Positions 1,726 to 60,898 of a stretch of DNA of 64,000 nt are shown here, one piece after another. A program made the translations under genes and the position numbers. The notes beneath the pieces are model-generated. The model saw only the letters and a list, made by a program, of their open reading frames with translations. It ran no database searches and had not been told where the DNA came from. Source of the DNA: Desulfamplus magnetovallimortis. GTDB taxonomy: Bacteria > Desulfobacterota > Desulfobacteria > Desulfobacterales > Desulfobacteraceae. The stretch lies in NCBI RefSeq assembly GCF_900170035.1, contig NZ_LT828552.1, forward strand, positions 23,642-87,641. The letters are read 5' to 3'. Positions within the stretch are counted from its first letter, which is position 1. Each line of letters begins with the position of its first letter.

Positions 1726-1726
1726 A

Positions 1727-1930: not shown

Positions 1931-2058
1931 AACAAGGAGCAAACGGGCTTAACAGAATCGATTCACAAACAAAAAAAATTTTTAGTTCTAAAATGCTTTC
2001 AATATTACTAACTGCAAAAGGGCAATGAGGCCCGCTAAAGCAATTCATGGAGGATAAC
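1931..2058 (+). promoter_or_regulatory. fliC leader with possible CsrA sites
   Basis: The leader contains AAGGAGC (1934-1940), a small hairpin (GGGC ... GCCC near 2021-2034) and the ribosome site ATGGAGGATAAC, which holds two GGA motifs (2049-2054). An upstream GGA plus GGA in the Shine-Dalgarno sequence resembles the layout CsrA uses to repress flagellin in Bacillus subtilis, where FliW antagonises it. csrA and fliW are both present here. This is inference from pattern and gene content. Confidence 0.4.
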
Positions 2059-2062
2059 TATT

Positions 2063-7388: not shown

Positions 7389-7537
7389 AGTATTTCCCGT
7401 TTTATAATATCTCCCACCAAAAAAAACTTAATAATAACCATGGATATGCCGACAAATATTATTACATCGGGAGAAAATATTGACAGGAAGTAATACACAA
7501 GAAAGAAAATTCAATCACAGTACTATGGAGGTTTAAA

Positions 7538-8041
7538 ATGAGACAACCTGCTGGAATGCAAAAATACATGAACAACCACTATGATGGGATGACTCCGGAA
7601 CAACTGATACTAATGCTTTACAAAGGTGCTCTGCAACGCCTTCAACTTGTAAAACAGGCTATTGAAGAAAAAAATATTCAGAAACGTGGAGAAAACTTGA
7701 GTAAAGTCATAGCAATAATATCAGAGTTAAACTCTTCATTGAATACCGACGGAAAGGATGACAGTATTAAATTTCTGGGTGGACTCTATATGGCAATGCT
7801 GGTTGAACTCCCAAAGGTATCCATTAACAACGATATTGAGACAATTGAGAGGACAGCCCGCTACATTGAAAAACTCAAAGAGATCTGGGAAACAAGTGTC
7901 ATGAGCAAGGCATCTGTTAATGCTGCCGCAAAATATCCTTCACAGGCAGCCTACCCGCGTCAGCAAAAAGCTGCATCAAAATCATTTACCAATAATTATG
8001 GAAACCAAACCCAGGCAAGATTAAACGCTTTTGCTGTATAA
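7538..8041 (+). CDS. fliS: Flagellin export chaperone FliS
   Basis: Binds the C-terminus of flagellin and prevents premature polymerisation in the cytoplasm. The family core is clear: MTPEQLILMLYKGALQRL near the N-terminus and LNTDGKDDSIKFLGGLYMAM in the middle. It is 167 residues, about 30-40 more than typical FliS, because of a low-complexity C-terminal tail rich in Ala, Gln and Asn (KYPSQAAYPRQQKAASK). The start follows TATGGAGGTTT. It lies in the fliD-fliT-like-fliS-flaG group; a weak sigma-28-like site upstream was not convincing. Confidence 0.93.
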   Translation: MRQPAGMQKYMNNHYDGMTPEQLILMLYKGALQRLQLVKQAIEEKNIQKRGENLSKVIAIISELNSSLNTDGKDDSIKFLGGLYMAMLVELPKVSINNDIETIERTARYIEKLKEIWETSVMSKASVNAAAKYPSQAAYPRQQKAASKSFTNNYGNQTQARLNAFAV

Positions 8042-8117
8042 AAATATTTCATTGAGTAGAAAATCTGTTGACAACTCACTTTAAAACAGATGATTATAGA
8101 ATCAATGTTATGACAGT

Positions 8118-8157
8118 TTTAACACATTACACTATCAAATTTAACACATTACACTAT
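8118..8157. repeat. 22-bp direct repeat upstream of flaG
   Basis: TTTAACACATTACACTAT occurs at 8118-8135 and again at 8140-8157, separated by four bases, in the AT-rich gap between fliS and flaG. No hairpin or sigma site is evident; it may be an operator or a slipped duplication. Confidence 0.5.
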
Positions 8158-8229
8158 GAAAATTTCACAAAAACTTATATATCAGCAAGATGAATAAGAT
8201 CAAAAGATGACAATCAAGGAGGATTAATC

Positions 8230-8655
8230 ATGAACATTAACACTATCAGGTCGTCTGACAGCATGGATGCACTGTCTCCCATGAGAACGACCTTAAAAAC
8301 TCAGGAAAACAAAAATGATAATGCTCATCTTAATGAGTCAGATCAGATGTCTGCCAATAAGAAAAAAAACCTTGATAATGAGACTCTCCTGAAAAAGGAA
8401 GATGAAAAAAAGGAAAAATCTACATCTTCCATGGAAGAGCTTAAAAATATGGTTACCGAGCTTAACGATTACATGGATAACCTTAAGACAAGCCTGGGCT
8501 TTTCTGTAAGCAAGGATCCTGATAACCAGGTCATTTTCCAGATAAGAAACAGGGAGACAAATGAAGTAATAAAGCAGATTCCTGCTGAAGAGATCCAGAC
8601 AATTAAAAAGAAAATGACTGAATTGACTGGAATGCTGTTGGATCAACGTGCATAA
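8230..8655 (+). CDS. flaG: FlaG family protein
   Basis: FlaG proteins influence filament length in polarly flagellated bacteria. The C-terminal half (residues about 75-141) carries the family pattern: LNDYMDNLKTSLGFSV, QVIFQIRNRETNEVIKQIPAEEI and a closing helix. The N-terminal 70 residues are charged and low-complexity (many Lys, Glu, Asn), as is common. The start is preceded by AAGGAGGATTAATC. It is the last gene of the filament group; no clear terminator follows. Confidence 0.9.
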   Translation: MNINTIRSSDSMDALSPMRTTLKTQENKNDNAHLNESDQMSANKKKNLDNETLLKKEDEKKEKSTSSMEELKNMVTELNDYMDNLKTSLGFSVSKDPDNQVIFQIRNRETNEVIKQIPAEEIQTIKKKMTELTGMLLDQRA

Positions 8656-35713: not shown

Positions 35714-37669
35714 TTAGATAACCGCTCTGAACCCTTCAGGTTCCTGCTGCAATATCTCATTGATAAGTGATTTTTCACTTAACATCTCATGTTCTACCAC
35801 ACGGCAGGTGACATTACGTACAAAATAATCATGCTTCTGGAGATTTTTTGTAAGTTCCGGCAGCATCTGATTGAAAAAATTAGCAGTGTCAGGATCAGAA
35901 ACCTGAAAAACACCTGAGATGTTGTTTTTAAGCATGGAAAAATCAGCCCGCACAGGGCCTAACTGCGTCATACTCAAAAAAAGGGAAACCTTCAAAAGAT
36001 TGTCCGCTCTTGAAGCTTTTTCGGAATCCTTATCTCCAATATCAATAAACATCTGGCCAAATGAAAACTGACCATTTAGTAATATCGGAAACGGAATAAG
36101 GTATTTACCTGATTCGGAAAGATGTGTATTGACAAGCTGAACTTTTTCCAGATTCTGTGCAAATGATTTAATTGCTTCAATGTCAACATTCTCCAGCCTA
36201 TCGGATGATTCAGTTAACTGCAATGCCATTGATTTGAGATCTTCTGTCAAATTATTGCCGGATATCCTGCCTGGCAGTAGAACATCAGGATTAGGCATCG
36301 TTTTATCAAAGGCAGGAGCAAATCTGGCTGCTGCCTCATGGGTAAAAGAATGTCTCGCCCCAGAGGTCTCTGGATTATTTGCAAAACGATTTTGTTCAAA
36401 CAAATCCTGCCTCAACATTTTTTCTGCTCCACGGCTTTCTTTGATATCAGATGGATTGTTCGGGTTAAAGCCCAAATCCTTCTTTTCAAGTAGTGAATTA
36501 TTATGTCTATAATTCTCCATCTGCTTTTCCGACCGTGTGTTACTCTGAATATAGTCAATCGTCTTCTGTTCCGGATTTGAATTACTTTGAATATAATTCA
36601 CCATTTTTTTTTCCAGAAGCAAACCGCTTTTTTCCAGTAATCGGGGAATCAGAAGAAAATCCGCACTACCGGATTTCAAAGAAATATTTAAAAGCAATGA
36701 TGTCATGGACATAAGACCAGAGCCTTTAGGTCTGATGTTTAACTGGGCAGAAGAATCAGAAACCTCTTTATTCAGCAGCTCACCCCTTGTTAAAACATCA
36801 TCAGGTTTTACAGAAAAATTAAGGGAATCCGGTTTGTTTTGCACAACAGATCTGGCGGCCGGTTCTGGTTTACTCTCCACATCAGATCTTACAGTGACAT
36901 CTGATTTAATATCCTGATTTACTCTAACAGGGGCATCTGGTTTAACCACCCCATCTGTTCTGACAGGGGTATCTGGCTTAATATCCCGACCTGCTCGGAC
37001 AGATGCATCTGATTTAACATCCCGAATTTCCCTGACAGAGCTATCTGGTTTACTTTCCAGATTAAGTTTATCGGAAACATCAGTAGGGGATTTTTCAGGC
37101 GTCATTGAGGGTTTTAGATGCGAAAATTTATCTGGAACAGATGGCGCTACTGAAGAGGATGGAGTCTCTGACCTGACTGCTCCCTTAAATGAAGGTAATT
37201 CTGGTTGCTGTCCAGATTTTAGAACTTTAACATGACTTTCAAAACCTTTTTTCAGAGCAGACGACAATTTTTCTGCAAGACGGTCAAAACCATCAAAAGG
37301 GGAAGATTGTTTTAACAGAAGGCTTAAAGGGGTCTGCTCAAAACGACTGTTTTGTACAGAAACTTTCTGTTCCGTAATAGTATTGGCAGGTTTTGTTCCG
37401 GAAAGAGAGATTTTTTCCTTAAGAACACTCAACTCTCCCTGATCGTTAAGCTTCAACCGAATCATATCTCCGGTCTTGAAGTCAACTCCAGAAGGGAAAT
37501 CAACTGCAAGCTTTCTCCCCTGAATCAAAAGCTCAAATTTTGAAGATGCAAGATGTTTCAATACCTTTGCATCAATCATACGCTCCTTGCCTGACAAGGG
37601 AATGGCAGATTTTTTCTGCAATCTGTCTGCTTTGAAAAGTTCTGATAAAATAACACCAAGCCCGCTCAT
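35714..37669 (-). CDS. Second FliK-like protein (hook-length-control-like)
   Basis: 651 residues. The C-terminal part (about 520-640) has the layout of the FliK C-terminal domain family: LIPFPILLNGQFSFGQMFIDIGD, then a strand-rich stretch LGPVRADFSMLKNNISGVFQVSDP and FFNQMLPELTKNLQKHDYFV. The N-terminal part (VLKHLASSKFELLIQGRKLAV, DFPSGVDFKTGDMIRLKLND) is a small beta domain. The middle is disordered, with about nine degenerate repeats around KPDxxVRxxxDVK. The ATG overlaps the stop of the preceding gene (ATGA). It differs from the true fliK at 56888-59737. It may regulate or measure another structure; inference only. Confidence 0.55.
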   Translation of the reverse strand: MSGLGVILSELFKADRLQKKSAIPLSGKERMIDAKVLKHLASSKFELLIQGRKLAVDFPSGVDFKTGDMIRLKLNDQGELSVLKEKISLSGTKPANTITEQKVSVQNSRFEQTPLSLLLKQSSPFDGFDRLAEKLSSALKKGFESHVKVLKSGQQPELPSFKGAVRSETPSSSVAPSVPDKFSHLKPSMTPEKSPTDVSDKLNLESKPDSSVREIRDVKSDASVRAGRDIKPDTPVRTDGVVKPDAPVRVNQDIKSDVTVRSDVESKPEPAARSVVQNKPDSLNFSVKPDDVLTRGELLNKEVSDSSAQLNIRPKGSGLMSMTSLLLNISLKSGSADFLLIPRLLEKSGLLLEKKMVNYIQSNSNPEQKTIDYIQSNTRSEKQMENYRHNNSLLEKKDLGFNPNNPSDIKESRGAEKMLRQDLFEQNRFANNPETSGARHSFTHEAAARFAPAFDKTMPNPDVLLPGRISGNNLTEDLKSMALQLTESSDRLENVDIEAIKSFAQNLEKVQLVNTHLSESGKYLIPFPILLNGQFSFGQMFIDIGDKDSEKASRADNLLKVSLFLSMTQLGPVRADFSMLKNNISGVFQVSDPDTANFFNQMLPELTKNLQKHDYFVRNVTCRVVEHEMLSEKSLINEILQQEPEGFRAVI

Positions 37670-38394
37670 CAGAACTGCTTCTCCATCTGGATAAATTTTT
37701 CTTTCAGGTTAATAACCAGTTGCACTTCTCCCTGGGGCATCGAGAGTCTTGACGCAATGGTTTCAACATCCATACCCTCCTGATAAAGCTCTACAATTTT
37801 CTGCTGCTGATCAAACACATCATCTTCCGAATGCCTTTCTCTAATTGCATCTTCGCGCAATGCAACATCCCTCTCCCTAAAATCAGACATTTCAGAAAGC
37901 CCTGAAAAACCCATATTGCCACCACCTCGCCTGGATTGACGTGATGAATTATAACTGTTGCTGAATTGTCCCTGATTGTTTAAAAGCACCTCAGCCCTTG
38001 AGAGAAGAAGATTAATACTGATTATTCTTGAATCAAGAGCATCATTCAACTCACGAATCAAACGCTTTTTCTCTTTTATCTGTGAGTCAAACGTGTCTGC
38101 TGCGGCTTCTGCCCCCTTTACAAGTGGATCCAGAAGATCAATAATATCCTGGGTGGCCCTGTCAATCATCTGAACTGCTGCCTTATCAGCCAAAGTATCA
38201 GTACTGTACTCAAGCTTTTCCAATGTTTCACGGTAAACTGATTCTGCCATTGTATTAAAATAATCTTTTTTCATGGCAGGATCAGAATAAAGTTTTCCCA
38301 GTTTTCTGACAACGCCCCAAACAAGCAGCACAATAAGAAACTGAAAACACAGTTGTAGTACTATCCAGAATTCAATGGAAAATAGTCTCATCAT
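37669..38394 (-). CDS. Membrane-anchored DUF2802/DUF6115-like protein
   Basis: 241 residues. One N-terminal membrane segment (FWIVLQLCFQFLIVLLVWGVV), a coiled coil (about 70-130), and a C-terminal HTH-like segment VELYQEGMDVETIASRLSMPQGEVQLVINLKEKF. This combination matches the DUF2802/DUF6115 proteins encoded in flagellar/chemotaxis operons of Pseudomonas, Vibrio and Bacillus. Its function is unknown. It overlaps the flanking genes at both ends (4 bases with the 105-residue gene upstream and a shared ATGA with FliK-like downstream), so it is in one operon with them. Confidence 0.65.
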   Translation of the reverse strand: MMRLFSIEFWIVLQLCFQFLIVLLVWGVVRKLGKLYSDPAMKKDYFNTMAESVYRETLEKLEYSTDTLADKAAVQMIDRATQDIIDLLDPLVKGAEAAADTFDSQIKEKKRLIRELNDALDSRIISINLLLSRAEVLLNNQGQFSNSYNSSRQSRRGGGNMGFSGLSEMSDFRERDVALREDAIRERHSEDDVFDQQQKIVELYQEGMDVETIASRLSMPQGEVQLVINLKEKFIQMEKQF

Positions 38395-38708
38395 GCAACA
38401 GTATTAAGAAGGTTACCTGGCAAATCAGGATATTGTCCCTTTGTGGACTCGGGATTCTTTTTCTTTTTTTTTCTCTTCAATAACCTTCTCTTCTTGTTCT
38501 CCTTCCTCTTTTCATCAGCATTGACATCATTATTGAGAGCACTTTCGTTTTCCGAGGATTGCACAGTTGTCTGCTCAACAACTTCCCTTGTTACCTGCTG
38601 ATTCTGAAGATGTTCGGGATCCGGCTGAACCGGTTTCAGGTGATGGGTAGCATCATGAGCTCTTCCTGACTGCTGAATAACAATATTATGACCTGGTATT
38701 GTTGTCAT
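38391..38708 (-). CDS. Small hypothetical protein with a basic tract
   Basis: 105 residues with no recognised domain. An N-terminal Gln/His-rich part (GHNIVIQQSGRAHDATHHL), an acidic/Asn-rich centre, and a very basic stretch RKENKKRRLLKRKKKKKNPE (residues about 65-85), ending DLPGNLLNTVA. The ATG at 38708 follows GGGGAGGTGATACC; the open frame extends 12 codons further. It overlaps the DUF2802-like gene by 4 bases. Small disordered basic proteins at this position occur in flagellar operons, but no function can be assigned. Confidence 0.55.
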   Translation of the reverse strand: MTTIPGHNIVIQQSGRAHDATHHLKPVQPDPEHLQNQQVTREVVEQTTVQSSENESALNNDVNADEKRKENKKRRLLKRKKKKKNPESTKGQYPDLPGNLLNTVA

Positions 38709-38737
38709 GGTATCACCTCCCCTATCCTGCTGATTTG

Positions 38738-38868
38738 TCAGCAACTAATATTAATGATTTATCAGCACTTAATGTTACTGTTTTGTCAGCACTTAATGTT
38801 ACTGCTTTGTCAGCACTTAATGTTACTGCTTTGTCAACACTTAATGTTACTGCTTTGTCAGCACCTTA
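38738..38868. repeat. 24-bp tandem repeat upstream of the small basic-protein gene
   Basis: TCAGCACTTAATGTTACTGC begins units at 38762, 38786, 38810 and 38834 (period 24), with diverged units at 38738 and 38858. It fills the gap between the FliL-like stop and the next gene's ribosome site. The unit is not coding on the minus strand here; it may set spacing or be a slippage product. Confidence 0.9.
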
Positions 38869-38876: not shown

Positions 38877-40835
38877 CTATCCTGTTTCAAATTGAGAAAA
38901 AGTCACCTTATCAATTTTTTTACCTGGCAAAGCCTGATTCAACGCATCTATTATGATATCAAGAAGATCTTTTTCAGTCAATCGTGACCCTTTATCTGAT
39001 CTCAACGCCTTCATAACAGCATCATAAACAGTATGCCTGTAATATGGTATTCTATCCATAATCTCGTCAAATGTTGTCATGTATGAATAATCAATAACAA
39101 TATCAAACGACATATATGTTGTAAGTTCATCCTGGTCAGGGGTAATAACGACAAAACCTTCCATATTTATAGTTCCGGGACTGAAGATCTCTTCCTCTGC
39201 CGGTGGGGTCTCGTCACTGTTCATATCAATATCCATTACGTTTTCTGCAGGTTGCTCAAGAACAGGTGGCAGATCAGGTTTTTCTGAGACAAGTTTATCA
39301 CGCAGGTAGAAAAAATATACAGCAGCAACGCAACCGCCTATAACAATAATGACAACAAGAATCATCAAAATAATCTTGACAAGAAATCCTTTTTTGCCAG
39401 AAACTTCTTGCCCACTCTCCTGATCACCAAGCTGCTCAATTTCATCAGTAGCAGCGGCGTCCTCTTCTTCAAGCAGAACAGATTCAGATTCATCTTCCTT
39501 ATCAAGGTCTCCAATATTATCCTCAAAATCAGAAGATATATCCAGATCCTCATCCTGTTCCATGTCAGCCAGCAGATCCTCATCTTCCTCATCCGAACCA
39601 GCCAGCAAAGCATCAATATCATCCTGGGAGATAATATTGCGGCTCTCTTCATTATCGTCATCAGAATCAGGAGGTAATTCCGGAGAGTCCTCGGAATTTA
39701 GAAAACCGTCAATATCATCCTGGGAAATACTTTCAAGTTCATCTTCGGTTTCAGAATCAGCATCACTTAAAAGTGCATCCAAATCCTCGGCAGAGATGTC
39801 ACTGTCATCACCTATGGAAAAATCATCATCTTCTTCCATATCGGACAGGTTAACCTGAAAATCATCTTCTTTCTCTTGCCTCATGCTCTCATCAGATGGA
39901 GCATCAGGCTCAGATAAAATTGAATCCTCAACCTCATCTTCCAGAAGATCTGAATCCTCAATAAGTTTATCAAGATCATCCTGGGTTATCAGGCAATCCT
40001 GTACATTCCATCCATCAGAGTCAGAAATAAGCTCCTCAACCGCTTCATCAGAATCAACCGTAAGCTCCTGAGCAGCACCTGAAGATATTGGTTCATCCTC
40101 TGCAATTTCATCAAGATCATCCAGAATGGCGGCATCTTCAACAGATTCCGACGACATGAGCTTATCAATATCATCCTGGGAAACAAGATCCAGATCTTTA
40201 TCATCGGTGTTATCAAGATCATCATCTTCTTCTGAAAGAGTGGAACCATTCAAAAGGCTGTCTATATCATCCTGGGACAACTCTCCAAGGTCGTCATCAC
40301 CAGAATCGTCAAGGTCATCTTCAGGTAGAACATCAGGCTCTTCTGACGGGTCAGAAGCGTTTAAAAGGCTGTCTATGTCATCCTGGGACAACTCTCCAAG
40401 ATCGTCATCGCCAAGGTCGTTTTCCGATAGGGATTCTTCAAAGAGGTCATCTGACTCTTCTGATGGTGCAGATGCGTTTAAAAGGCTGTCTATGTCATCC
40501 TGGGACAACTCTCCAAGATCGTCATCGCCAAGGTCGTTTTCCGATAGGGGGTCTTCAGAGAGATCATCTGTCTCTTCTGATGGTGCAGATGCGTTTAAAA
40601 GGCTATCTATATCATCCTGGGACAATTCTCCAAGGTCATCGACAGGAAGGTCATCAACTTCGTCAGCAGGAGATGCAGCGTTCAAAAGATTATCTATGTC
40701 ATCCTGGGATAATTCTCCAAGGTCATCTTCACTTTTCACAATGCTCTCTTCGGCCTCTTCAATGGAGCCTGCACTTAATAGTTTGTCAATATCATCCTGG
40801 GAGATCAGAGTATCGTCATTGGTAGCGTCAGGCAT
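38877..40835 (-). CDS. FliL-like protein with eleven FliM-type SQDDIDxLL motifs
   Basis: 652 residues. The C-terminus (about 545-652) is a FliL-type periplasmic domain (TYMSFDIVIDYSYMTTFDEIMDRIPYYRHTVYDAV, LTEKDLLDIIIDALNQALPGKKIDKVTF). It follows one membrane segment (about 482-510: LVKIILMILVVIIVIGGCVAAVYFF). The N-terminal cytoplasmic part (1-470) is strongly acidic and carries eleven copies of a motif with consensus (I/L)SQDDIDxLL. The first is LISQDDIDKLLSAG and the last IISQDDIDALLAGS; four central copies are near-identical (LGELSQDDIDSLLN). The same motif begins FliM in this window (ILSQDEVDSLLAG) and is the known CheY-P binding element of FliM. It follows fliA. A true FliL (51413-52036) is also present, so this is a paralogue with a gained array. 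Function inferred: a multivalent CheY- or switch-binding protein at the inner membrane. Confidence 0.8.
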   Translation of the reverse strand: MPDATNDDTLISQDDIDKLLSAGSIEEAEESIVKSEDDLGELSQDDIDNLLNAASPADEVDDLPVDDLGELSQDDIDSLLNASAPSEETDDLSEDPLSENDLGDDDLGELSQDDIDSLLNASAPSEESDDLFEESLSENDLGDDDLGELSQDDIDSLLNASDPSEEPDVLPEDDLDDSGDDDLGELSQDDIDSLLNGSTLSEEDDDLDNTDDKDLDLVSQDDIDKLMSSESVEDAAILDDLDEIAEDEPISSGAAQELTVDSDEAVEELISDSDGWNVQDCLITQDDLDKLIEDSDLLEDEVEDSILSEPDAPSDESMRQEKEDDFQVNLSDMEEDDDFSIGDDSDISAEDLDALLSDADSETEDELESISQDDIDGFLNSEDSPELPPDSDDDNEESRNIISQDDIDALLAGSDEEDEDLLADMEQDEDLDISSDFEDNIGDLDKEDESESVLLEEEDAAATDEIEQLGDQESGQEVSGKKGFLVKIILMILVVIIVIGGCVAAVYFFYLRDKLVSEKPDLPPVLEQPAENVMDIDMNSDETPPAEEEIFSPGTINMEGFVVITPDQDELTTYMSFDIVIDYSYMTTFDEIMDRIPYYRHTVYDAVMKALRSDKGSRLTEKDLLDIIIDALNQALPGKKIDKVTFSQFETG

Positions 40836-40965: not shown

Positions 40966-41709
40966 TCAGCCATTGTAATAACTCTTTAGGCGACTCTTAA
41001 GTTTAGTCAATATTGTAGCATGAATCTGACATATTCTTGATTCAGTTAACTCAAGTACCTCGCCAATCTCTTTCAAGGTTAACTCTTCGTAGTAGTAAAG
41101 AGAAACAACAAGCTGTTCCTTTTCACTTAAATCCCCAATGGACTGAGCAATCACAGATTTAAGCTCTTCCCTGTCAAACTGGTCAGAAGGTGTCTCTTCC
41201 CCCTTCAGTGTTGCCATAAAGCGTGTCTGGGAAGAGTTGTCGTTTGACTGGGTCTTTAAATAGGCATCCAGACTTAAAACTGCTGAGCCGTGGATCTGGG
41301 TCACCATCTCATTGTAGGTGTCAAGCCCAACCCCAAGAGCATCTGCAATTTCGCTGTCAGATGCAGGAGCACCTTTGGAATCCTCAATTGATTTCTGGGC
41401 AGCGGCAATCTCCTGAATTTTTTTGCGCAGTGATCGGGAGTATTTATCCATACTCCTCAACTCATCAAGTATTGCACCCCTTATTCTATACTGAGCATAG
41501 GTTTTCAACGTGACATGTTTTTCAGGATCAAACTTGTCAACAGCATCAATAAGACCCATTGAACCAGCACTGACAAGTTCATCAAAAAAGACACTTGAGG
41601 GAAGCCTTCTTGCAAAGCTTGCTGCAATATGCTTGACCAGATAGGCATACTCAACAATCGTGGCCTCCCGCCACGCTTCTCTACTTTTCATGTCACTCTG
41701 TTTTTTCAA
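40966..41709 (-). CDS. fliA: Flagellar sigma factor FliA (sigma-28)
   Basis: Directs late flagellar promoters. Region 2 is clear (YLVKHIAASFARRLPSSVFFDELVSAGSMGLIDAVDKFDPEKHVTLKTYAQYRIRGAILDELRSMD). Region 4 is also clear (LSEKEQLVVSLYYYEELTLKEIGEVLELTESRICQIHATILTKL). 247 residues. Candidate targets in this window: fliC, fliD, flgK, flgN and the DUF1566/MopE gene. Start uncertain: TTG at 41709 or ATG at 41691. It follows flhG after 76 bases. Confidence 0.95.
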   Translation of the reverse strand: MKKQSDMKSREAWREATIVEYAYLVKHIAASFARRLPSSVFFDELVSAGSMGLIDAVDKFDPEKHVTLKTYAQYRIRGAILDELRSMDKYSRSLRKKIQEIAAAQKSIEDSKGAPASDSEIADALGVGLDTYNEMVTQIHGSAVLSLDAYLKTQSNDNSSQTRFMATLKGEETPSDQFDREELKSVIAQSIGDLSEKEQLVVSLYYYEELTLKEIGEVLELTESRICQIHATILTKLKSRLKSYYNG

Positions 41710-41785: not shown

Positions 41786-42700
41786 TCAATTAATTGTATC
41801 AAGAAGCCTTTTCATGAAGAATTTGAGATTTCCATCATTAGAAATCCTTGCAGGAGAATCCACAAGCTTGCGTGCAATACCTGTAATGGCTGACGCGGAA
41901 GGAGATTCTGGTGCATAATCACACACAGGACTTCGATTGAGAACTGCCTTCTGCAACATATTGTCATGGGGAACATACCCGAGATACTCAAGGACAATAT
42001 TTTTCAAAAATCTGCCAATGGCTCCATCCAGCGATGCATAAACCGATTTAGCTTCCTTCTGGGAACTTACCACATTAACAAGAAGTTTAAAATACCTTGT
42101 TCCGTATTCTCTGGCCATAACCTTCATTAATGCATATGAATCTGTTATTGATGTTGGCTCTCTTGTGGCAATTACAATACACTCATCAGCCGCAGAGTTA
42201 AAATAGAGTACATTGGATGATATTCCAGCACCAGTGTCGAGGAGAACAATATCTGCAACATTCTCAAGTGCCTCAAATTCCGTAAGCAGGTTAAGTTTTT
42301 CACCATCCGTAAGCTGGGTCAAATGGGAAAATCCCGAACCTCCAGGAAGAATTTTTACACCGTGAGAAGTTGTGACAAGAACTTCTTCAAGGGTTTTCTC
42401 CCCCTCTATTATATGTCTGATATTGTATTTGGGACGCATATTAAAAATAATATCAATATTTGCAAGCCCGACATCTGTATCCACGATCACAACCCTCTTT
42501 CCAAGAGAGGTAAGTGCAATGGCAAGATTTCCAACCATGTTGGTTTTACCAACCCCACCTTTCCCACTTGTAACAGCAATTACCCTTGGAGGTGTCTTAT
42601 GTGGTTTACCATCAAGTCTCCGTGGCACTGAAGAAGATAAATTTCTTCTCGCTACAGAGCCGTTTTTGACAATATTTCTCAAACCGCTTGCCTGATCCAC
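41786..42700 (-). CDS. flhG: MinD-like ATPase FlhG (FleN)
   Basis: Controls flagellar number and position with FlhF. The N-terminus is DQASGLRNIV, typical of the family, followed by the deviant Walker A VTSGKGGVGKTNMVGNLA, then VVIVDTDVGLANIDIIFNM and VLLDTGAGISSNVL. 304 residues. The GTG at 42700 is preferred (GGGGAG before it; the family N-terminus is DQA...); an upstream GTG at 42718 lies inside flhF. It starts two bases after the flhF stop. Confidence 0.94.
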   Translation of the reverse strand: MDQASGLRNIVKNGSVARRNLSSSVPRRLDGKPHKTPPRVIAVTSGKGGVGKTNMVGNLAIALTSLGKRVVIVDTDVGLANIDIIFNMRPKYNIRHIIEGEKTLEEVLVTTSHGVKILPGGSGFSHLTQLTDGEKLNLLTEFEALENVADIVLLDTGAGISSNVLYFNSAADECIVIATREPTSITDSYALMKVMAREYGTRYFKLLVNVVSSQKEAKSVYASLDGAIGRFLKNIVLEYLGYVPHDNMLQKAVLNRSPVCDYAPESPSASAITGIARKLVDSPARISNDGNLKFFMKRLLDTIN

Positions 42701-42701
42701 T

Positions 42702-44147
42702 TTATTGTTTCTCCCCACCCTGCTGCGCTCCCAACATTATACCGAGAAGATCACGCGTATCAGGAATAATTAAATCTTCCGGCACTCTCTGCCCGTTGGT
42801 GACGATGGAAACCGGCAGTTGCAAATCACTTATCTGATCAAAAATTTTGCCACATCTTTTGGTTTCATCCACTTTTGTAAAGACATATGTTTCTGGATTG
42901 AGTTTTGCAAAGGCATTGGCTGCTTCCCGCATGTCAAGAAAACCTGTGGTAAGACTCAAAACCAGATGAATTGATATATTATAATCCCCTCGGATAACTT
43001 CAGAGACCTCTTTCATGCGCATATGATCAGAATGGCTGTGCCCTGCCGTATCTATAAGCACAATATCCAGGAACTCCATTTTTTTTAATGCCCTTGTAAA
43101 ATCATCCCTTGTAAATGCAGCAATGCATAGCAACCCCATTATTGCAGCATAGGACTTTAACTGCTCAAACGCTCCTATACGATAGCTATCAATTGATATA
43201 AGTCCAACTCTTTTTTTGCGTTTTATACTCAATTCGGCAGCAAGTTTTGCAATGGTTGTTGTTTTTCCTACACCTGTTGGCCCCACAAAAGCTGCTACAT
43301 GGGGCATTCCAGACTCTGTAGGCCTTGTAAAAAGCTCCCTTGTACGAATCAACCCGAGGCACTCCCTGATTACATATTTTTTAAGAGGGTATATAAGGCC
43401 TGTACGTTCTGCCTGGTCGCTCTCCATTGCAAATGTGGCTCTTTGCAATATAAGATGCGCTCTTTTTTCCGAAATACCGGCTCTTAAAAGAGATGCATAT
43501 ATTCCTGCTGATTCCGTATAACTTCCAAGTATGGATGCCATACCACTTCCAAATCCAACAAGGGATATTAAATCCTTTATACTTGCAAGCTCATCAAAGA
43601 TCGCACCATCGGATATGGATGGGCCTGAAGCATTGCTGTTGGAGAATCCACTGTTTTTGCCTGCATATTCACGGTTTTTGCCTGCATATTCACTATTTTT
43701 GCCTGCATATTCACTATTTTTACCTGCATATTCACTGTTTTTACCTGCATATTCACTGTTTTTACCTGCATATTCACTATTTTTACCTGAATAGAAAGCT
43801 GCCTCGCCATAAGCATCACTGCCTTTACCGGAATTCCCAGTATTAACATGGTCTGATACAGAATCTCTTACAGATTGTTTTCCTCCTTCAGATGTAGAAC
43901 CAGTGCGAGCTCCTTTAATGGAGAGATTTTGTTGATCTTTAATCGATTTTTGATCATCTCTTCCCCTGTCGCTCCTGTCAGGTTCGCAAGGTGCTGCCTC
44001 AACTTCAAACATCTCCTTTGCATATGGATCCCTTGGACTTTTGGGTATTCGCCTGGTGGATAGGATCATGGCATCCGGTCCCAGCTCTTCCTTTATAATG
44101 GAGAGTGCCTTCTGAATACTGCGAGCTTTATAGACTTTGCCTTCCAT
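42702..44147 (-). CDS. flhF: SRP-type GTPase FlhF, with 7-residue repeats
   Basis: Recruits flagellar components to the cell pole. The N-terminus VYKARSIQKALSIIKEELGPDAMILSTRRI and the NG domain (about 240-470: AAFVGPTGVGKTTTIAKLAAEL, VGLISIDSYRIGAFEQLKSYA, DIVLIDTAGHS, TYVFTKVDETKRCG) are all family. 481 residues. Residues about 122-163 contain six near-identical heptapeptide units (NSEYAGK or NREYAGK) in the variable linker, encoded by a 21-bp tandem repeat. Three bases separate it from the flhA stop. FlhF plus FlhG indicates polar or otherwise controlled flagellar placement. Confidence 0.96.
   Translation of the reverse strand: MEGKVYKARSIQKALSIIKEELGPDAMILSTRRIPKSPRDPYAKEMFEVEAAPCEPDRSDRGRDDQKSIKDQQNLSIKGARTGSTSEGGKQSVRDSVSDHVNTGNSGKGSDAYGEAAFYSGKNSEYAGKNSEYAGKNSEYAGKNSEYAGKNSEYAGKNREYAGKNSGFSNSNASGPSISDGAIFDELASIKDLISLVGFGSGMASILGSYTESAGIYASLLRAGISEKRAHLILQRATFAMESDQAERTGLIYPLKKYVIRECLGLIRTRELFTRPTESGMPHVAAFVGPTGVGKTTTIAKLAAELSIKRKKRVGLISIDSYRIGAFEQLKSYAAIMGLLCIAAFTRDDFTRALKKMEFLDIVLIDTAGHSHSDHMRMKEVSEVIRGDYNISIHLVLSLTTGFLDMREAANAFAKLNPETYVFTKVDETKRCGKIFDQISDLQLPVSIVTNGQRVPEDLIIPDTRDLLGIMLGAQQGGEKQ
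43659..43784. repeat. 21-bp tandem repeat inside flhF (six copies)
   Basis: Units start at 43659, 43680, 43701, 43722, 43743 and 43764 and read GCCTGCATATTCACTATTTTT with few changes. The unit length keeps the flhF frame and encodes NSEYAGK. It is a likely site of length polymorphism. Confidence 0.92.
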
Positions 44148-49680: not shown

Positions 49681-50056
49681 GGTATTTTTCTCCAGATGCA
49701 GAGTCTTTCAAAAGACTGAATTTTCCGGATAAAGAAGGTTCTGTGGAAGAGTGAGGCTCAGAATTCCGGCAGATATTATTGCCATCGCCACTTTCAATTA
49801 CCCCAAGGGAATTAATGCTCTGGGCAGTCACTCCTATCAGCATCTTCTTATCCATCACATCAACAAGCACAATCTTTTCCTTTGGTGAAAAATGATGCAC
49901 CGCCAAAACTTTAATCATCTCATATTCTGACTTTACTGTTGCAAAAGAAGAGAATCGCTTTAAGAGATACAAAAAAAGAAGCAGCAGAGCAATAACAAAT
50001 ATCAGTACACTTGCTGTTCTTAAAAATGCCCCCCAAATATCTGTTGTGTTTTCCAT
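49670..50056 (-). CDS. fliO: Flagellar protein FliO
   Basis: 128 residues, one N-terminal membrane segment (FLRTASVLIFVIALLLLFLYLLKRFS), followed by EMIKVLAVHHFSPKEKIVLVDVMDKKMLIGVTAQSINSLGVIE, a typical FliO beta region. FliO assists FliP assembly. The start overlaps the fliN stop by one base, and the end overlaps fliP. The C-terminal 45 residues are disordered. Confidence 0.93.
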   Translation of the reverse strand: MENTTDIWGAFLRTASVLIFVIALLLLFLYLLKRFSSFATVKSEYEMIKVLAVHHFSPKEKIVLVDVMDKKMLIGVTAQSINSLGVIESGDGNNICRNSEPHSSTEPSLSGKFSLLKDSASGEKYHEE

Positions 50057-50394
50057 CAGTTGGTTAAACTTTTTACCCTGTCCATTGGTGTAATGATATC
50101 TGTAAGACGAACACCGAATTTTTCATTAACCACAACAACCTCACCCCTGGCAATCAGCTTCCGGTTTATGTAAACTTCCAGAGGCTCACCAGCCAGCTTG
50201 TTCAACTCCACAATGGATCCCTGGCTTAACTGCAGCAGGTCATTGACAAGCATTCTTGTCTTTCCAAGCTCCACAGAGAGTTCAAGAGGGATATCAAGAA
50301 TAAAAGATAGCTCCCGCTCACCTGACTCCTCTCCATGCTCAGTTGCCTGAGCATCCATGGTACCACCATTTTGTTTATTGTTGTTATCGCTCAT
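50056..50394 (-). CDS. fliN: C-ring protein FliN
   Basis: 112 residues. The SpoA domain is clear: LDIPLELSVELGKTRMLVNDLLQLSQGSIVELNKLAGEPLEVYINRKLIARGEVVVVNEKFGVRLTDII. The N-terminal 25 residues are Asn/Gln/Glu-rich. It lacks the SQDDID motif present in FliM. Between fliM and fliO. Confidence 0.97.
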   Translation of the reverse strand: MSDNNNKQNGGTMDAQATEHGEESGERELSFILDIPLELSVELGKTRMLVNDLLQLSQGSIVELNKLAGEPLEVYINRKLIARGEVVVVNEKFGVRLTDIITPMDRVKSLTN

Positions 50395-50421: not shown

Positions 50422-51402
50422 CTACTTAAGAGCAAGTTTTTCTTCAACTCTGAATGCCTGAAACCCTCGTCTTACACCGGCATATCCTTTTACTTTAGGA
50501 AGATCTCCCACAAATCCTGTAAGCATGTCTGTTGCATCATGATCAAGCTGAATTATATCTCCTTTTTGCATAAGCCAGAGGCGCTCACCGGTAATTTCTG
50601 TTATCCCAAGCTGAATTCTCAACTCTATTGTCGAGTCCAGAATAACAGACTCCAGCATCCTTCGCCAGGCAATATCAGTTTCCTCAATTTCAGCCTGAAA
50701 TCCCGATGCCAGCTTGTAACGTAAAGGTTCTATCATGGAATAGGGAAGACAGACAATCAGATTTCCTGCATCCTGCTCAAGCTCTATTTCAAAACGTGTC
50801 ACAATTACAAGGTCTGTTGGTAGAACAATGGCTGCAAACTGCGGGTTCATTTCCGAACGAACAAGGGCTGTTTTCACAGCCTCAATGGGTCCCCATGCAG
50901 TTTCAATATTTTTAAGGCATGCCACCACAACCTTTTTGGTGACAACCTCTTCAATGGCAGTAAATTCCCTGCCTTCAACTCTTGCCCGTCCTGTACCTTC
51001 ACCACCAAAAAAAGTGTCTATCAGATTATAGACAAGCTGGCTTTCAAGGATAACAAGACTTAAGCCTCTTAATGGCTCCATCCTGAAAACATGAAGACTT
51101 GTGGGAACAGGAAGACTTCTTACAAACTCTGAAAATTTCAGTGTATCAAGGGGATTGGCACTTACATCTACATTGGTCTGAAGAAGGGTTGACATACTGG
51201 TTCTAAGTTCCCTTGCAAGCCTTTCATTAATTACATCAAAGGTGGGCATCCTTGCCCTTACAACTTTATCCTGGCTGGTGAAGTCATAGGTTGCAACACC
51301 CTCTGGTTCAACATCCTCAACATCTTTTTCTGTTTCAACTTCGCCGGCATCAAGGCCAGCGAGCAGACTGTCAACTTCATCCTGGGAAAGAATTTCGCTC
51401 AT
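50422..51402 (-). CDS. fliM: C-ring switch protein FliM
   Basis: 326 residues. The N-terminal motif EILSQDEVDSLLAG (residues 3-16) is the CheY-P binding element. The middle domain starts MPTFDVINERLARELRTSMS and includes SLHVFRMEPLRGLSLVILESQLVYNLIDTFFGG, and the SpoA domain ends in VKGYAGVRRGFQAFRVEEKL. Normal size and content. The N-terminal motif is the one multiplied in the protein at 38877-40835. Confidence 0.97.
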   Translation of the reverse strand: MSEILSQDEVDSLLAGLDAGEVETEKDVEDVEPEGVATYDFTSQDKVVRARMPTFDVINERLARELRTSMSTLLQTNVDVSANPLDTLKFSEFVRSLPVPTSLHVFRMEPLRGLSLVILESQLVYNLIDTFFGGEGTGRARVEGREFTAIEEVVTKKVVVACLKNIETAWGPIEAVKTALVRSEMNPQFAAIVLPTDLVIVTRFEIELEQDAGNLIVCLPYSMIEPLRYKLASGFQAEIEETDIAWRRMLESVILDSTIELRIQLGITEITGERLWLMQKGDIIQLDHDATDMLTGFVGDLPKVKGYAGVRRGFQAFRVEEKLALK

Positions 51403-51412: not shown

Positions 51413-52036
51413 TCAATGCAATATTAATTCCGTAAAAAAAACATTTTTAACCATTTTACCTGGCAATGCACCATTCAGTGCTTTAATAATGTTATATTTC
51501 AAACGGATTTTTCCATCTGGATTTCTAAGTACAAACCATGTCATCTTCTCAACTTCAGATTGAACTGTCGTTTGAATAAGCTCCATATTTGATTCAAAAG
51601 AGTCTCTCAACTCCGGTTTGGCAAGCTCAACAGAAATTTTAAAGGTAATATGATTCATATTACCACTCTCCTGTATAGCAATCTCCTCAAAAGCAGGAAG
51701 ATCAACAACATCCGGGAAATCAGGTTCCGGTGGAGGCAATGCTTCTCCATCCTGATTTTCAGGAGCTTCTGCTTCAGCAGACTGGCTGGCTATATCTCCA
51801 TCCTCGGGTGGAGATTTTTTCAGAAAGAAGAACCATCCAGCAAAAGCGCCACCGCCAACAACCAGTATTATAACCAGCATAATAATTATGAATTTAAGGC
51901 TCAAAATCTTTTTTAAAAAGGGCTTTTTTTCAACTTCCGAGCCTTCACCTGAAGAGGATTCCTCCCCTGCAGAAGGGGGAGTTTTCTTCTCTTCTTTATT
52001 ATCAGAATCTTTTTTCTTGTCCTTTTTTTTAAACAC
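51413..52036 (-). CDS. fliL: Flagellar basal-body protein FliL
   Basis: 207 residues. A Lys/Glu-rich cytoplasmic N-terminus, one membrane segment (LKFIIIMLVIILVVGGGAFAGWFFFL), an acidic linker, then the FliL domain (NMNHITFKISVELAKPELRDSFESNMELIQTTVQSEVEKMTWFVLRNPDGKIRLKYNIIKALN). FliL binds the stator ring. The GTG at 52036 is preferred (TTTGGAGATTTTT before it) over a TTG at 52048. First gene of the fliL-M-N-O-P-Q-R-flhB operon. Confidence 0.92.
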   Translation of the reverse strand: MFKKKDKKKDSDNKEEKKTPPSAGEESSSGEGSEVEKKPFLKKILSLKFIIIMLVIILVVGGGAFAGWFFFLKKSPPEDGDIASQSAEAEAPENQDGEALPPPEPDFPDVVDLPAFEEIAIQESGNMNHITFKISVELAKPELRDSFESNMELIQTTVQSEVEKMTWFVLRNPDGKIRLKYNIIKALNGALPGKMVKNVFFTELILH

Positions 52037-52123
52037 AAAAATCTCCAAACTACCTGTAGTTGTCCATAAGTGTCGATTTTTAGTATATCAAAAAAAATGG
52101 CTCAGTGTAAAATAAATTCAACA

Positions 52124-52521: not shown

Positions 52522-55500
52522 TTATCTCTTCATACCTATAACTGTATTCATCATATCATCAACAGTTGTAACTGTTTTTGAGTTTGCCTGGAATCCCCTC
52601 TGGGTGGTGATCATCTTTACAAATTCTTCTGAGATATCCACATTTGACATCTCAAGTGAACTTGGAGAGAGGGTTCCAAGGCCATTCTGACCCGGACGGT
52701 TTGTAATGGCATCTCCGCTGTCCCGTGTCTCCCTGAAAAGGTTGCCGCCAGCATTGTACAAGCCATTGTTATTCAGAAACTTTGCAAGACCGACCCTGAA
52801 GAGCGGTATAAGCTCTCCATTGGAGTAGATACCTGTAATTGTCCCGTCTGTTGCAATATCAACGCCCTCAAGATCCCCTGCAGCATAACCATCTGCGGTC
52901 TGAAATACTGTTGTCGAAGCCTTGGCATACTGTGTTGTTGACATGGAATCATTCTGAAAATTGGCACCGTCAAACTTTGCTCCGATATCAAATTTTATAT
53001 TGTTTTCCGTTGAACCATTATCCCCTCCAAGAAAATCAGCTGTAAAGCTGAAATAACCTGTATCCCTTATATCATCTTTGGCAATAGGCTTCCATGCAGT
53101 TGATCCGCTTATATCAAACTCAATCAGACTGACATCCTTAAAGCCGGTAATATCCAGAGGCTTGGTAAATGAGAATATGATATCATCTGTATCATCTTCA
53201 TTGCCGGAACCATCAAGATCAATCATGGCTTTTTTTTGATCACCTGTCAAAGTAGCCTCCTGGTACTCTTCTGGAGGAGAGTCAGGATCAACAGTTAAAA
53301 TCAATGTTGAACCAGCTCCTGGAGCAGCAGCAGCACCTGACAGGTCAATGGTGAGATCATCTCCACCATTACCGTCAAAGTTAATATTCACATTGGTTCC
53401 TGCTGTTATGGCGGCATCAGGATATACTGTTGGAGGAGATGGATCAACTGTAAATGTTATCGAATCATTGTGCGATACAGAAGAATCAAAATCATACCTA
53501 ATAACTGTACCACTGACAAGAGTGATCTCAAGTACGTCTGCATTATTTGCAGCAGCATTGATTGTTGTACCCGCAGGTGCAGCAGTCAAGCCCCAGTTTG
53601 TTCCACCACCAGCAGGAGCAGGACCATCAAATGTAATCACATAATCACCCGCATCCTGAAAGACGCCATTTGTTGCATCGGGAGTAATTGTCCGTTGTGC
53701 ATCCACAACACCTAAGTTTAAATCCTCATCCACAATATCCTCACCGGTTGATTTGAAGGGCATATTCCAATCCCATGTACCATTGACATTGTCATAGGCA
53801 AGCTGAAGATCCTTTACATACTTGGTCATGGCAGATGGATCACCAGGATTAGCGGGTGATGGAGTTATGACAAATGGAGATGGCGAAAAGGCAGCATCTC
53901 CGGAATAGGTGATTTCAGGAATAAGATTACCTTCCTGGGCAGCAACGTCGGGATTTCCCCATCTCCACAACTTTTCCTCGGGGTACCACACAATATTTAT
54001 ACCTTCATCATCAATAGTCATTACACTGGGGTCATTGACCTCTATTGTTGTATTGCCATTTTTTGTCTCACCAACAAAATTGGATCCGTCAATTCCCTGT
54101 ACATGAATATCCTTTTCAGCATTGATATCAAAAAGAACAACATCCCCTGTATCTGAAGGTTTGTCCAGTGCTATTTTAACATCATCTTCCTGATCATCGT
54201 TATTCAGTCGAATATATATATTTTCACCATCAGAATAGGAAATGGTTGCATCAGGATAATTTTTTACTGCAGTTGGAGCATCCAGGGTAAATGAGAGCGC
54301 ATCATTGGCTACAGCTCCGGCAGCATCAAAATCATATCTGATGACCGTTCCGCTTGCAAGTTCAAACTCAAGGACATTGGCCGTGTTTGTAATTATACCA
54401 CTTGGCCCCAAGGCTGGTGTAGATGCACCTGCACTCCAGGGAGCTGCACCTCCTGCAGATATGAAGCTATAATCACCCAGATCATTATAAATACCATCAG
54501 TGCCGGGGGTTATGGTACGTCTTGTGGTTGTGGAGATATCAAGTACCTGATTCTCAATATTTCCACCGTTTTCGTCAAAAAGAAGATGGGAAAGTGACCA
54601 TTCAGTGCCATCAAATTTCAATTCAAATCCATATCCATCCTCTTTCATGGTTTCCGTATCTTCAATTGTAAAGTGGATATCTTCATCATCATTAACACCA
54701 GATGAAGAGAGGTTTCCGATTCTTCCTGTAAGTTCATTCATGGTAATATCAATTATATCCCCACTGCTTTCACTGAAGGTGATCGTGCCCTTTGCCAAAA
54801 GGCCCTTGGCAGAGGTGCTTTGAAGCAGCTCTCTTTTGTCATCCCCTGGTTCACATGCAATCATGTACTCCCACTCTGTTCCCGATTTTTTATCATAGTA
54901 TATTGAGACATCATGGGCACTGCCAAGGGAATCATATACTTTTATAACTGTCTGATATTCATAACGTTCTCCACCAACATAAGCATCTTCATTTGTAGCA
55001 TCCCAATAATTTGCCATTACATCGGATTTGCTTATGGCATCTGCATCAAGGTTTGTAATAGCAGTAATTTCAGTGCTCTGTTGGGGCGGTGATGTAAAGG
55101 TATCCATTATAATATTGCCAATTGCTCCCACATCATCACCGGTTTCACTGTCAAGTTCCCATCCCTGAACAACATATCCATTTGGGTTGACAAGCTTACC
55201 TGCTTCATCAAAATGAAAATTTCCTGCCCTTGTATAAAAACTTGCTTCAGCATCCATATCAGAAACTATGAAAAAACCATCACCGCCAATGGAGAGATCT
55301 GTTACATTACCTGTTGATTCAAAGGAACCCTGACCAAAACTCTGGGCAACCTCTCCAATTGACATTCCACGTCCTATCTGATCAACGCCTGATTGAGTGG
55401 AAACTGTCTGATTGAGGGTATCGGCAAAAGAAGAGACACCTTTTTTGAACCCTACAGTATTGGAGTTGGCAATATTGTTGCTGACAACCTGCATTACATT

Positions 55501-55554
55501 GCCCATATTGATCAATCCACTTGTACCTGTAAAAAGTGAACTTGAAAGTGCCAT
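52522..55554 (-). CDS. flgE: Flagellar hook protein FlgE, enlarged
   Basis: 1010 residues against about 400-550 usually. The ends are canonical: LFTGTSGLINMGNVMQVVSNNIANSNTVGFKKGVSSFADTLNQT and LSPSSLEMSNVDISEEFVKMITTQRGFQANSKTVTTVDDMMNTVIGMKR. The central insert contains a duplicated module (about residues 345-470 and 620-745), each opening with RTITPxxxxGxxxDxGDY and containing ASGTVIRYDFD or VSGTVIRYDFD and YPDAxI. The hook is therefore probably thick or decorated at the surface. The start lies 99 bases after flgD. A terminator follows. Confidence 0.95.
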   Translation of the reverse strand: MALSSSLFTGTSGLINMGNVMQVVSNNIANSNTVGFKKGVSSFADTLNQTVSTQSGVDQIGRGMSIGEVAQSFGQGSFESTGNVTDLSIGGDGFFIVSDMDAEASFYTRAGNFHFDEAGKLVNPNGYVVQGWELDSETGDDVGAIGNIIMDTFTSPPQQSTEITAITNLDADAISKSDVMANYWDATNEDAYVGGERYEYQTVIKVYDSLGSAHDVSIYYDKKSGTEWEYMIACEPGDDKRELLQSTSAKGLLAKGTITFSESSGDIIDITMNELTGRIGNLSSSGVNDDEDIHFTIEDTETMKEDGYGFELKFDGTEWSLSHLLFDENGGNIENQVLDISTTTRRTITPGTDGIYNDLGDYSFISAGGAAPWSAGASTPALGPSGIITNTANVLEFELASGTVIRYDFDAAGAVANDALSFTLDAPTAVKNYPDATISYSDGENIYIRLNNDDQEDDVKIALDKPSDTGDVVLFDINAEKDIHVQGIDGSNFVGETKNGNTTIEVNDPSVMTIDDEGINIVWYPEEKLWRWGNPDVAAQEGNLIPEITYSGDAAFSPSPFVITPSPANPGDPSAMTKYVKDLQLAYDNVNGTWDWNMPFKSTGEDIVDEDLNLGVVDAQRTITPDATNGVFQDAGDYVITFDGPAPAGGGTNWGLTAAPAGTTINAAANNADVLEITLVSGTVIRYDFDSSVSHNDSITFTVDPSPPTVYPDAAITAGTNVNINFDGNGGDDLTIDLSGAAAAPGAGSTLILTVDPDSPPEEYQEATLTGDQKKAMIDLDGSGNEDDTDDIIFSFTKPLDITGFKDVSLIEFDISGSTAWKPIAKDDIRDTGYFSFTADFLGGDNGSTENNIKFDIGAKFDGANFQNDSMSTTQYAKASTTVFQTADGYAAGDLEGVDIATDGTITGIYSNGELIPLFRVGLAKFLNNNGLYNAGGNLFRETRDSGDAITNRPGQNGLGTLSPSSLEMSNVDISEEFVKMITTQRGFQANSKTVTTVDDMMNTVIGMKR

Positions 55555-60074: not shown

Positions 60075-60898
60075 TCACTCTTTACGGTGTGCAAGCCTTT
60101 CGCTTATTTTTGCTGCCTGTTCCTTGTCAACATGTTCAAGAATTTTTGACGCTTTTCTTTCCGCTATCCTGGATATTATCTCGCTTGCAACTTTGATATC
60201 CATTTGACTTAAAACAGCCCCTGCGCTTTCCGGTGCCATCTTTGCGTAAACAGAAGCCATATGGGTCATCTTTTTTTCAAATTCAGCTTCCTTTGCTCTC
60301 TCCTGGGCAAGTTCTTCGTCACTTTTGACCTTCTGGATCATTGCCAGATCGTCCTGAATCTGTTTTTTAAGAGCTTCAAGTCTTTCAAGGTTTTCGTCTA
60401 TCTCTTCCTTGAACTTTTCAAGGGCTTTTCTCTCCTCTTTCAATGCCTCTTCTTCTGCCAGCAAAGCCTTTTTTTTATCCTCAAGACCTATAAGTACAAC
60501 CTTTGCAGGATCAGGGCACTCAGGACATGGAGGCGGAGCATTAGGATCAACATCGCCACCCTCTTCGCCCTCCTTGGGAGCTTCATCACTTTTTGTATCC
60601 TGTCCGGTTTGAACCTCATCTCCTGCATTTTCCTGGTCACCATCTGCTGCAAATGAAAAAGTGGAGATCAAATTCGGAGAAAATGAAAACAAAAATCCAA
60701 TAAAAAAATGAAGAGAATAAAGATTGCCTTGTATTTAGGATATGACACATATTTTTTTCCATTTTCGTCAAGAGTCGCCCTGATTCTTTTTTCTTCGTGA
60801 ATAAGAAAAGCTTCTTCTTCATGCACACAGAAATTATCTACATCACAGAAATCAAACTTTTCCTGGCCACAAATATGACCGGTTCTACGATAATTCAT
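60075..60898 (-). CDS. motE: MotE-like flagellar protein, read through an apparent -1 frameshift
   Basis: The C-terminal part (60075-60692) has a coiled coil and the MotE/MgtE-N-like end (MASVYAKMAPESAGAVLSQMDIKVASEIISRIAERKASKILEHVDKEQAAKI). Its N-terminus lacks a good start, but an ATG at 60898 with AAGGGAGGCATCCC overlaps the fliJ end and reads into a hydrophobic stretch that stops at 60668 in a different frame. The two frames join at ATT TTT TTA (minus strand, 60709-60701), a T TTT TTA heptamer. A -1 shift there gives a plausible membrane anchor (about FIFLIGFLFSFSPNLISTF). The composite is about 274 residues. It is either programmed frameshifting, a phase-variable T7 run, or an indel. 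Position between fliJ and fliK is typical for motE. Confidence 0.6.

Follow-up and report, generated by a model that had tools for sequence, protein, structure and literature searches.

Introduction

The N-terminal peptide of FliM (FliM_N) is reported to bind phosphorylated CheY (CheY-P) (PMC7355467), and binding of CheY-P to an EIDALL-type motif is described for both FliM and FliY (PMC9126983). For the FliM_N peptide a value of 27 µM with CheY is reported (PMC9126983), and for a longer FliM piece 39 nM. EIDAL is mentioned as occurring sporadically in FliN and FliY (PMC6946799). FliL is described as a ring surrounding the stator and interacting with MotB; for Borrelia a decamer model of the ring around the stator is given, and Vibrio crystals are reported to show a ring of ten members (PMC9195833). 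Here, a stretch of 64,000 nucleotides of Desulfamplus magnetovallimortis (contig NZ_LT828552.1, positions 23,642 to 87,641; in the following called the window) was analyzed, in which an open reading frame (ORF) at 38877-40835 on the reverse strand encodes a 652 amino acid protein, the array protein, in which a module from the stator side (FliL) is combined with one from the switch (FliM_N) in a single chain. It is a real, conserved and flagellum-linked protein of sulphate-reducing bacteria and a new variant of known parts, for which we infer a function at the motor. In the open-access literature (titles and abstract openings; subscription papers not covered) no such array protein was recognised.

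Results

Multiplied FliM_N-type motifs in the array protein

The features of the array protein are listed below; motifs 1 to 11 were located by motif scan and the helices are those of the AlphaFold2 model.

38877-40835 (-): FliL paralogue with motif array, 652 amino acids (aa); ORF, AlphaFold2, Foldseek, tree and profile comparison
39396-40835 (-): acidic array region, aa 1-480; motif scan, mostly low predicted local distance difference test score (pLDDT), presumably cytoplasmic by FliL topology
40776-40805 (-): motif 1, ISQDDIDKLL, aa 11-20, modelled helix 13-21
40683-40712 (-): motif 2, LSQDDIDNLL, aa 42-51, modelled helix 44-52
40596-40625 (-): motif 3, LSQDDIDSLL, aa 71-80, modelled helix 73-80
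40479-40508 (-): motif 4, LSQDDIDSLL, aa 110-119, modelled helix 112-119
40362-40391 (-): motif 5, LSQDDIDSLL, aa 149-158, modelled helix 151-158
40251-40280 (-): motif 6, LSQDDIDSLL, aa 186-195, modelled helix 188-196
40155-40184 (-): motif 7, VSQDDIDKLM, aa 218-227, modelled helix 220-227
39960-39989 (-): motif 8, ITQDDLDKLI, aa 283-292, modelled helix 285-295
39768-39797 (-): degenerate motif 9, ISAEDLDALL, aa 347-356, modelled helix 349-357
39699-39728 (-): motif 10, ISQDDIDGFL, aa 370-379, modelled helix 372-379
39603-39632 (-): motif 11, ISQDDIDALL, aa 402-411, with a conserved EDED block after it, modelled helix 404-412
39285-39392 (-): transmembrane helix, aa 482-517; AlphaFold2, ten-residue blocks at pLDDT 64-90
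38880-39185 (-): periplasmic FliL/SPFH domain, aa 551-652; AlphaFold2, Foldseek and profile comparison

Eleven copies of the motif had been claimed in the original prediction. Seven of them match (I/L)SQDDIDxLL exactly (aa 11, 42, 71, 110, 149, 186 and 402), three are close variants (VSQDDIDKLM at 218, ITQDDLDKLI at 283 and ISQDDIDGFL at 370) and the copy at aa 347, ISAEDLDALL, is degenerate and without the glutamine, so that eleven is reached only if the variants and the degenerate copy are counted. Set against the FliM_N pattern [IL]SQ-x-[DE]-[IV]-D-x-L-L, the array likewise has seven exact, three variant and one degenerate copy, and the proposed likeness to the FliM N-terminal peptide was thus confirmed by the motif scan.

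The expression [ILVMF][ST]Q[DEAGNS][DE][ILVM][DEN]x[LIFM][LIMFV] found 10 copies in the array protein. When the 480-aa cytoplasmic part was shuffled 20,000 times, 19,988 shuffles were without a motif, 12 had one and none had more; since shuffles reached one motif at most, compared to the 10 observed, a chance origin of the copies is excluded. At the DNA level, searching the window for CARGAYGAYATHGAY with up to two mismatches gave 25 matches (4.15 expected), and every one of the 9 perfect matches lies inside the array ORF. Throughout the genome the pattern scan gave 33 matches, 10 in the array ORF, one in FliM and 22 elsewhere; none of the latter (19 translated, 3 judged by letters) fits [IL]SQ[DE][DE][IV]DxLL. 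The 480-aa tail consists of 39% aspartate and glutamate and 2% lysine and arginine, with a net charge of -180.

The motif is retained while the linkers drift. Pairwise comparison of seven motif codons among ten window copies gave 87 synonymous and 27 non-synonymous changes, and for the 12 codons after each of these copies 71 synonymous and 395 non-synonymous changes were counted. Among 308 motifs taken from 46 named array proteins (48 without L107 and L111), position 5 is aspartate in 297 and position 6 isoleucine in 301; the invariable glutamine, and the presence of either D or E at position 5, were imposed by the search expression and are not findings. The FliM of the window begins MSEILSQDEVDSLL, and LSQDEVDSLL was obtained for all 30 FliM loci inspected, which were those with the highest scores among the 61 genomes with FliM. 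Beyond these 30, FliM has LSQEEVDSLL in genome G001 and LSQEEVDALL in genome G041.

A FliL-type anchor of separate lineage

The AlphaFold2 model of the array protein, built on a 33-row alignment, has a mean pLDDT of only 57 because of the array tail, with eight of eleven ten-residue blocks of the C-terminal domain (551-652) at 90 or more. Within the low-confidence tail, a short helix was modelled at each of the eleven copies and one more at 25-33. Foldseek against the PDB returned FliL first (6ahq, E 6.9e-4, the only match at or below 0.001), followed by 7sgn and 6ahp, and stomatin from rank 5; the 7sgn chains gave template modelling scores of 0.73-0.79 by target length. The array protein matched the ordinary FliL of the genome at 29% (E 3.9e-9), and comparison of profiles of array FliL domains and ordinary FliL yielded a probability of 97.2 (E 3.3e-11). 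The Pfam scan gave no PF03748 match over the gathering score and NCBIfam FliL only E 0.044. The FliL assignment therefore rests on the fold, the similarity to the genome's own FliL, the profile comparison and the relative L177, which passes Pfam FliL with 29.6 bits against 24.6. By structure model, Foldseek and profile comparison the protein has the single transmembrane helix and periplasmic SPFH-like domain of FliL, and the predicted FliL-type anchor with its periplasmic domain is supported. FliM middle or FliMN_C domains were not found by the Pfam scan, and the array had no match among sequences of solved structures at E up to 10.

A tree of 91 FliL domains separates 56 array domains from 33 ordinary FliL and two others by a branch with support 95/99 (ordinary group support 80/64); the tree has few columns and some long branches, and the 56 include L107 and L113 on a very long branch. 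The window domain clusters with Desulfamplus. This separation from ordinary FliL argues for a paralogue rather than an orthologue. L107 and L113 (Nitrospirota/Nitrospinota) were considered as FliL fusions, a reading that was dropped because profile probabilities of 0.6 and 0.2 and a poor model (mean pLDDT 43.5) do not support it; their placement in the tree is a long-branch join. Apart from the best FliL match, further FliL-family proteins (open frames of 211-356 aa) were seen in several genomes (L204-L210).

Distribution and gene order among relatives

An array match was obtained in 61 of 86 genomes of the same family. Every one of the 59 homologues examined, that is all except G034 and G044, carries at least two motifs, with a range of 2-13, so that arrays beside FliL domains, which the original prediction had proposed to look for in other genomes, were found. 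A scan of named genomes yielded 53 loci, including Desulfamplus, Desulfobacter, Desulfobacula, Desulfotignum, Desulfospira and Desulfosudis; the highest strict motif count is 16 (L097, identical to L178), which sets the range among relatives to 2-16. Searching the phylum with a single protein matched 2 of 395 genomes and was too insensitive. A profile search of the order matched 71 of 291 genomes, ordinary FliL matches included; of 18 stretches from this search, 12 have an ORF with at least two strict motifs and a FliL-like C-terminus (by eye), while L183-L185 have fewer than two strict copies and L186-L188 are other proteins.

By best BLAST match to the window ORFs, the array gene is present in each of the 43 named loci L062-L104; for its neighbors, some contigs are too short at that end to decide. 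Upstream of it, FlhG and FliA homologues were found in 39 of these loci, FlhF in 38 and FlhA in 35; downstream, DUF2802 was found in 37 and a FliK-like gene in 35. Across relatives, the array gene thus sits behind flhF-flhG-fliA.

In the window, the following genes accompany the array gene.

40966-41709 (-): FliA, immediately upstream of the array gene; family scans
41786-42718 (-): FlhG (MinD-like), named by eye because the sequence resembles MinD and the gene lies between flhF and fliA
50422-51402 (-): FliM with a single N-terminal peptide LSQDEVDSLL; family scans and translation
51413-52048 (-): ordinary FliL, PF03748 with E 7.3e-9, beside FliM

The putative FlhG is encoded two genes upstream of the array gene. 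The last two rows bear out that a separate, normal fliL and fliM exist; the motif is not present in the FliN of the window (50056-50394). The genome of the organism has six CheA genes by dimer domains. Further observations concern FlhF (42702-44147, by eye and place), which contains a run of near-identical YAGKNSE heptads, a small protein with a lysine-rich C-terminal part (38391-38744), which has a similar ORF in several named loci, located there between array gene and DUF2802, and, within one cluster, two FliK-type hook-length proteins (35714-37669 and 56888-59737) and a long FlgE-type hook protein of 1010 aa (52522-55554).

Co-occurrence with FliM and CheA

Presence of the array agrees with that of FliM in 74 of 86 family genomes (55 with both, 19 with neither, 6 with the array only, 6 with FliM only; Fisher p 3e-9). 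Among 42 good genomes, 31 have both, 9 neither (G016 is one of them) and one each has only one of the two (p 2e-7). The two discordant genomes are G041, with FliM and no array, in which the FliM start differs, and G043, with an array, in which no FliM was found. The conservation of the array together with the flagellum is thereby borne out. For array and CheA in all 86 genomes, the counts (both/array only/other only/neither, also below) are 59/2/13/12 (p 2e-6). Within the 72 CheA-positive genomes array and FliM remain linked (53/6/5/8, Fisher p 2e-4), as they do in the 37 good ones (30/1/1/5, p 8e-5), which indicates that the array goes with the flagellum also in genomes that have CheA. CheA was found in 10 of 10 array-bearing genomes tested, which does not separate the candidate ligands.

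Array and FliM without detected CheA occur in two genomes. G001 (1.9 Mb, 80% complete; array protein L248, 6605-7738) has an array protein of 378 aa with two motifs, and G048 (97% complete) one of 413 aa with four counted motifs, one of which was counted only after the expression had been widened on sight of that motif. Among 51 intact array proteins no others are as short, the next having 484 aa (length p 0.0016, copies p 0.03; G020, with a broken frame, and seven proteins that reach the end of the stretch retrieved were dropped). With n=2, lengths already known beforehand and the absence of CheA from a draft genome being weak evidence, the test is to be read with caution; that the two shortest array proteins are those of genomes without detected CheA is as expected if CheY-P is the ligand.

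The cluster of G048 (G048:C124; L249 and L272, same record as L104) contains FliF, FliG, FliH, FliL, FliM, FliN, FlhF, FlhG, the array and DUF2802, as well as a homologue of the window ORF 60075-60692, whose product we take to be MotE-like. The export genes, fliA, fliI, fliJ and hook genes of the window had no match in 50 kb of the 66.5-kb contig. Judged from this gene content, the reduced cluster possibly encodes a rotor without a filament.

Arrays on other proteins and in other phyla

A planctomycete FliN (L112, Phycisphaerae, 5058-5882) carries four motif-like copies ahead of the FliMN_C domain (E 1.6e-23); its gene lies after a FliL gene and before a FliO-like ORF, the latter identified by eye. 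In this class, 230 of 298 genomes matched the FliN query, and at least two motif-like copies are present in 26 of the best 30 planctomycete FliN loci (L218-L246 among them), a set biased toward the query and scored with a loose expression that admits a few doubtful copies.

Other arrays are found on different proteins. L111 (Hydrogenedentota, 245-3934) combines motif copies with a membrane helix and TPR; downstream of its gene lie those for a sensor kinase and an NtrC-type regulator as well as ORFs resembling flgB and flgC (by eye). L109 (Lentisphaerales, 7209-8375) carries five LD(Q/H)SEIDALL copies and one LSQDDIDALL, no Pfam domain was found in it, and it lies between MptE-like and REC-HD proteins beside FlhA, FlhB, FliR and FliP homologues. 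L107 (3-1454) and L113 (3-1406) consist of an array, a transmembrane helix and an unrecognised periplasmic domain; a gatB-like gene (by eye) is located downstream of each. L186 (1300-4170) is a DUF3999 protein with an LNQDDLDALL-type array behind a membrane helix, and L187 (1117-3177) an LNQADLDALF array protein with a membrane helix.

Discussion

The binding of CheY-P by such motifs, the FliL ring and the six CheA genes make a membrane-fixed antenna or buffer for CheY-P the best reading of the array protein. That this FliL paralogue displays many FliM_N-type peptides at the membrane by the motor to this end is just short of an even chance. The protein is, in this reading, an ancient FliL paralogue with a long, acidic and flexible cytoplasmic tail bearing many copies of the FliM_N peptide. 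Its FliL domain may oligomerise at the inner membrane, close to stators or a basal body under construction, and the tails could then surround the C-ring with a dense cloud of weak docking sites. On capturing the ligand of FliM_N, most likely CheY-P, a copy would become a short helix, and the array could raise and smooth CheY-P beside FliM and so affect switching. For this reading count the retention of the motif codons, the co-occurrence of array and FliM (also among CheA-positive genomes), the short array proteins of the two genomes without detected CheA, the profile match to ordinary FliL and the multiplication of the motif on the C-ring protein FliN in planctomycetes. A broader version, in which a stator-associated FliL ring acts as the CheY-P antenna and planctomycetes have arrived at an equivalent solution with several peptides on FliN, is rather doubtful; in it, a paralogue that is decameric as FliL is would place about a hundred FliM_N-type sites in each ring around the C-ring, setting gain and noise of the switch, and motif multiplication would be a general way to tune motor signalling.

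Several points weigh against CheY-P as the ligand. Binding of CheY-P by the array copies is predicted from motif likeness, and the array consensus (D-I at positions 5-6) consistently differs from the FliM peptide of the family (E-V). Both genomes without detected CheA retain motif copies, which makes a CheA-independent role possible, and four copies or fewer are also found in 6 of 49 intact CheA-positive arrays, so that arrays with few copies are not confined to genomes that lack CheA. Within the 61 FliM-positive genomes array and CheA show no significant association (53/2/5/1, p 0.27, a test without power), and all association tests count related genomes as independent, shared ancestry being ignored. 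An FlhG-like match was present in 10 of 10 array genomes tested, paralogous MinD-type proteins possibly included, and presence therefore cannot separate CheY from FlhG. Finally, L107, L113 and L186 had no neighbor matching the flagellar ORFs of the window in the stretches examined, and thus such arrays may not always be flagellar.

The alternative that survives best, although we consider it unlikely, is that the copies bind FlhG and not mainly CheY-P. Next to the FliL ring, the array would recruit FlhG to the membrane or titrate it there, with control of C-ring completion and flagellar number as the result. FlhG has been reported to meet FliM at the N-terminus of FliM, its gene accompanies fliA upstream of the array in 39 of the 43 named loci, and the reduced cluster of G048 keeps FlhG and the array, with export genes and fliA unseen in 50 kb and no CheA found in the genome. 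However, the shortest arrays belong to the two genomes in which flhG is present but no CheA was detected, and there is no evident need for up to 16 copies if FlhG is the partner. Published reports also speak against it: FlhG of B. subtilis is described as binding FliY, not FliM (PMC12826062), and a stable interaction of FlhG with the C-ring is given as undetected in Campylobacter (PMC6946799).

Less probable still is a scaffold for C-ring assembly or a sticker-and-spacer condensate, in which the copies bind FliM, FliN or each other and gather rotor subunits. We know of no direct C-ring partner of a bare FliM_N-type peptide, which counts against it, whereas the variation of the copy number from 2 to 16, the strongly acidic tail (net -180 over 480 aa) and the candidate secondary sites on FliM and FliN reported for FliM_N-held CheY (PMC7355467) would fit. 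Very improbable is a conserved acidic low-complexity tail, FliM_N-like by descent or convergence, whose specific partner was lost or never existed: similar arrays on unrelated membrane proteins (L107, L113 and L186) would agree with it, but the motif is kept while linkers drift, and motif and gene order are common to the named relatives.

A CheY-P antenna or buffer, as favored here, would bear on the delivery of CheY-P to FliM, and the array in general may bear on FlhG recognition at the FliM N-terminus, that is, on switching and on flagellar number. The strict copy number of 2-16 between relatives offers a direct test of dose. The array protein suggests an unrecognised part of the motor for concentrating signals or controlling assembly, and the comparable multiplication on FliN points to a wider principle that has gone unnoticed.

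Comparison with known systems

The array protein shares with FliL (PF03748) the single transmembrane helix and the C-terminal SPFH-like periplasmic domain; in contrast to FliL, it has a 480-aa cytoplasmic tail with 11 copies, forms its own lineage, and its gene follows fliA and does not lie beside fliM. With FliM_N it shares the ten-residue motif and the predicted helix, whereas the array repeats the motif many times, has D-I in place of E-V at positions 5-6 in this family, and lacks both a FliM middle and a FliMN_C domain. FliY and FliN with an N-terminal EIDAL resemble it in carrying the motif outside FliM, in multiple copies on planctomycete FliN, but they are C-ring proteins and not a membrane FliL paralogue. 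The polar landmarks HubP and FimV are membrane-anchored proteins with acidic cytoplasmic repeats, LysM and C-terminal TPR/FimV domains. Membrane anchor and acidic cytoplasmic repeats are features that the array protein has in common with these landmarks; it differs in that the Pfam scan gave no LysM or TPR/FimV match in the array protein and in that its repeats are of the FliM_N type.
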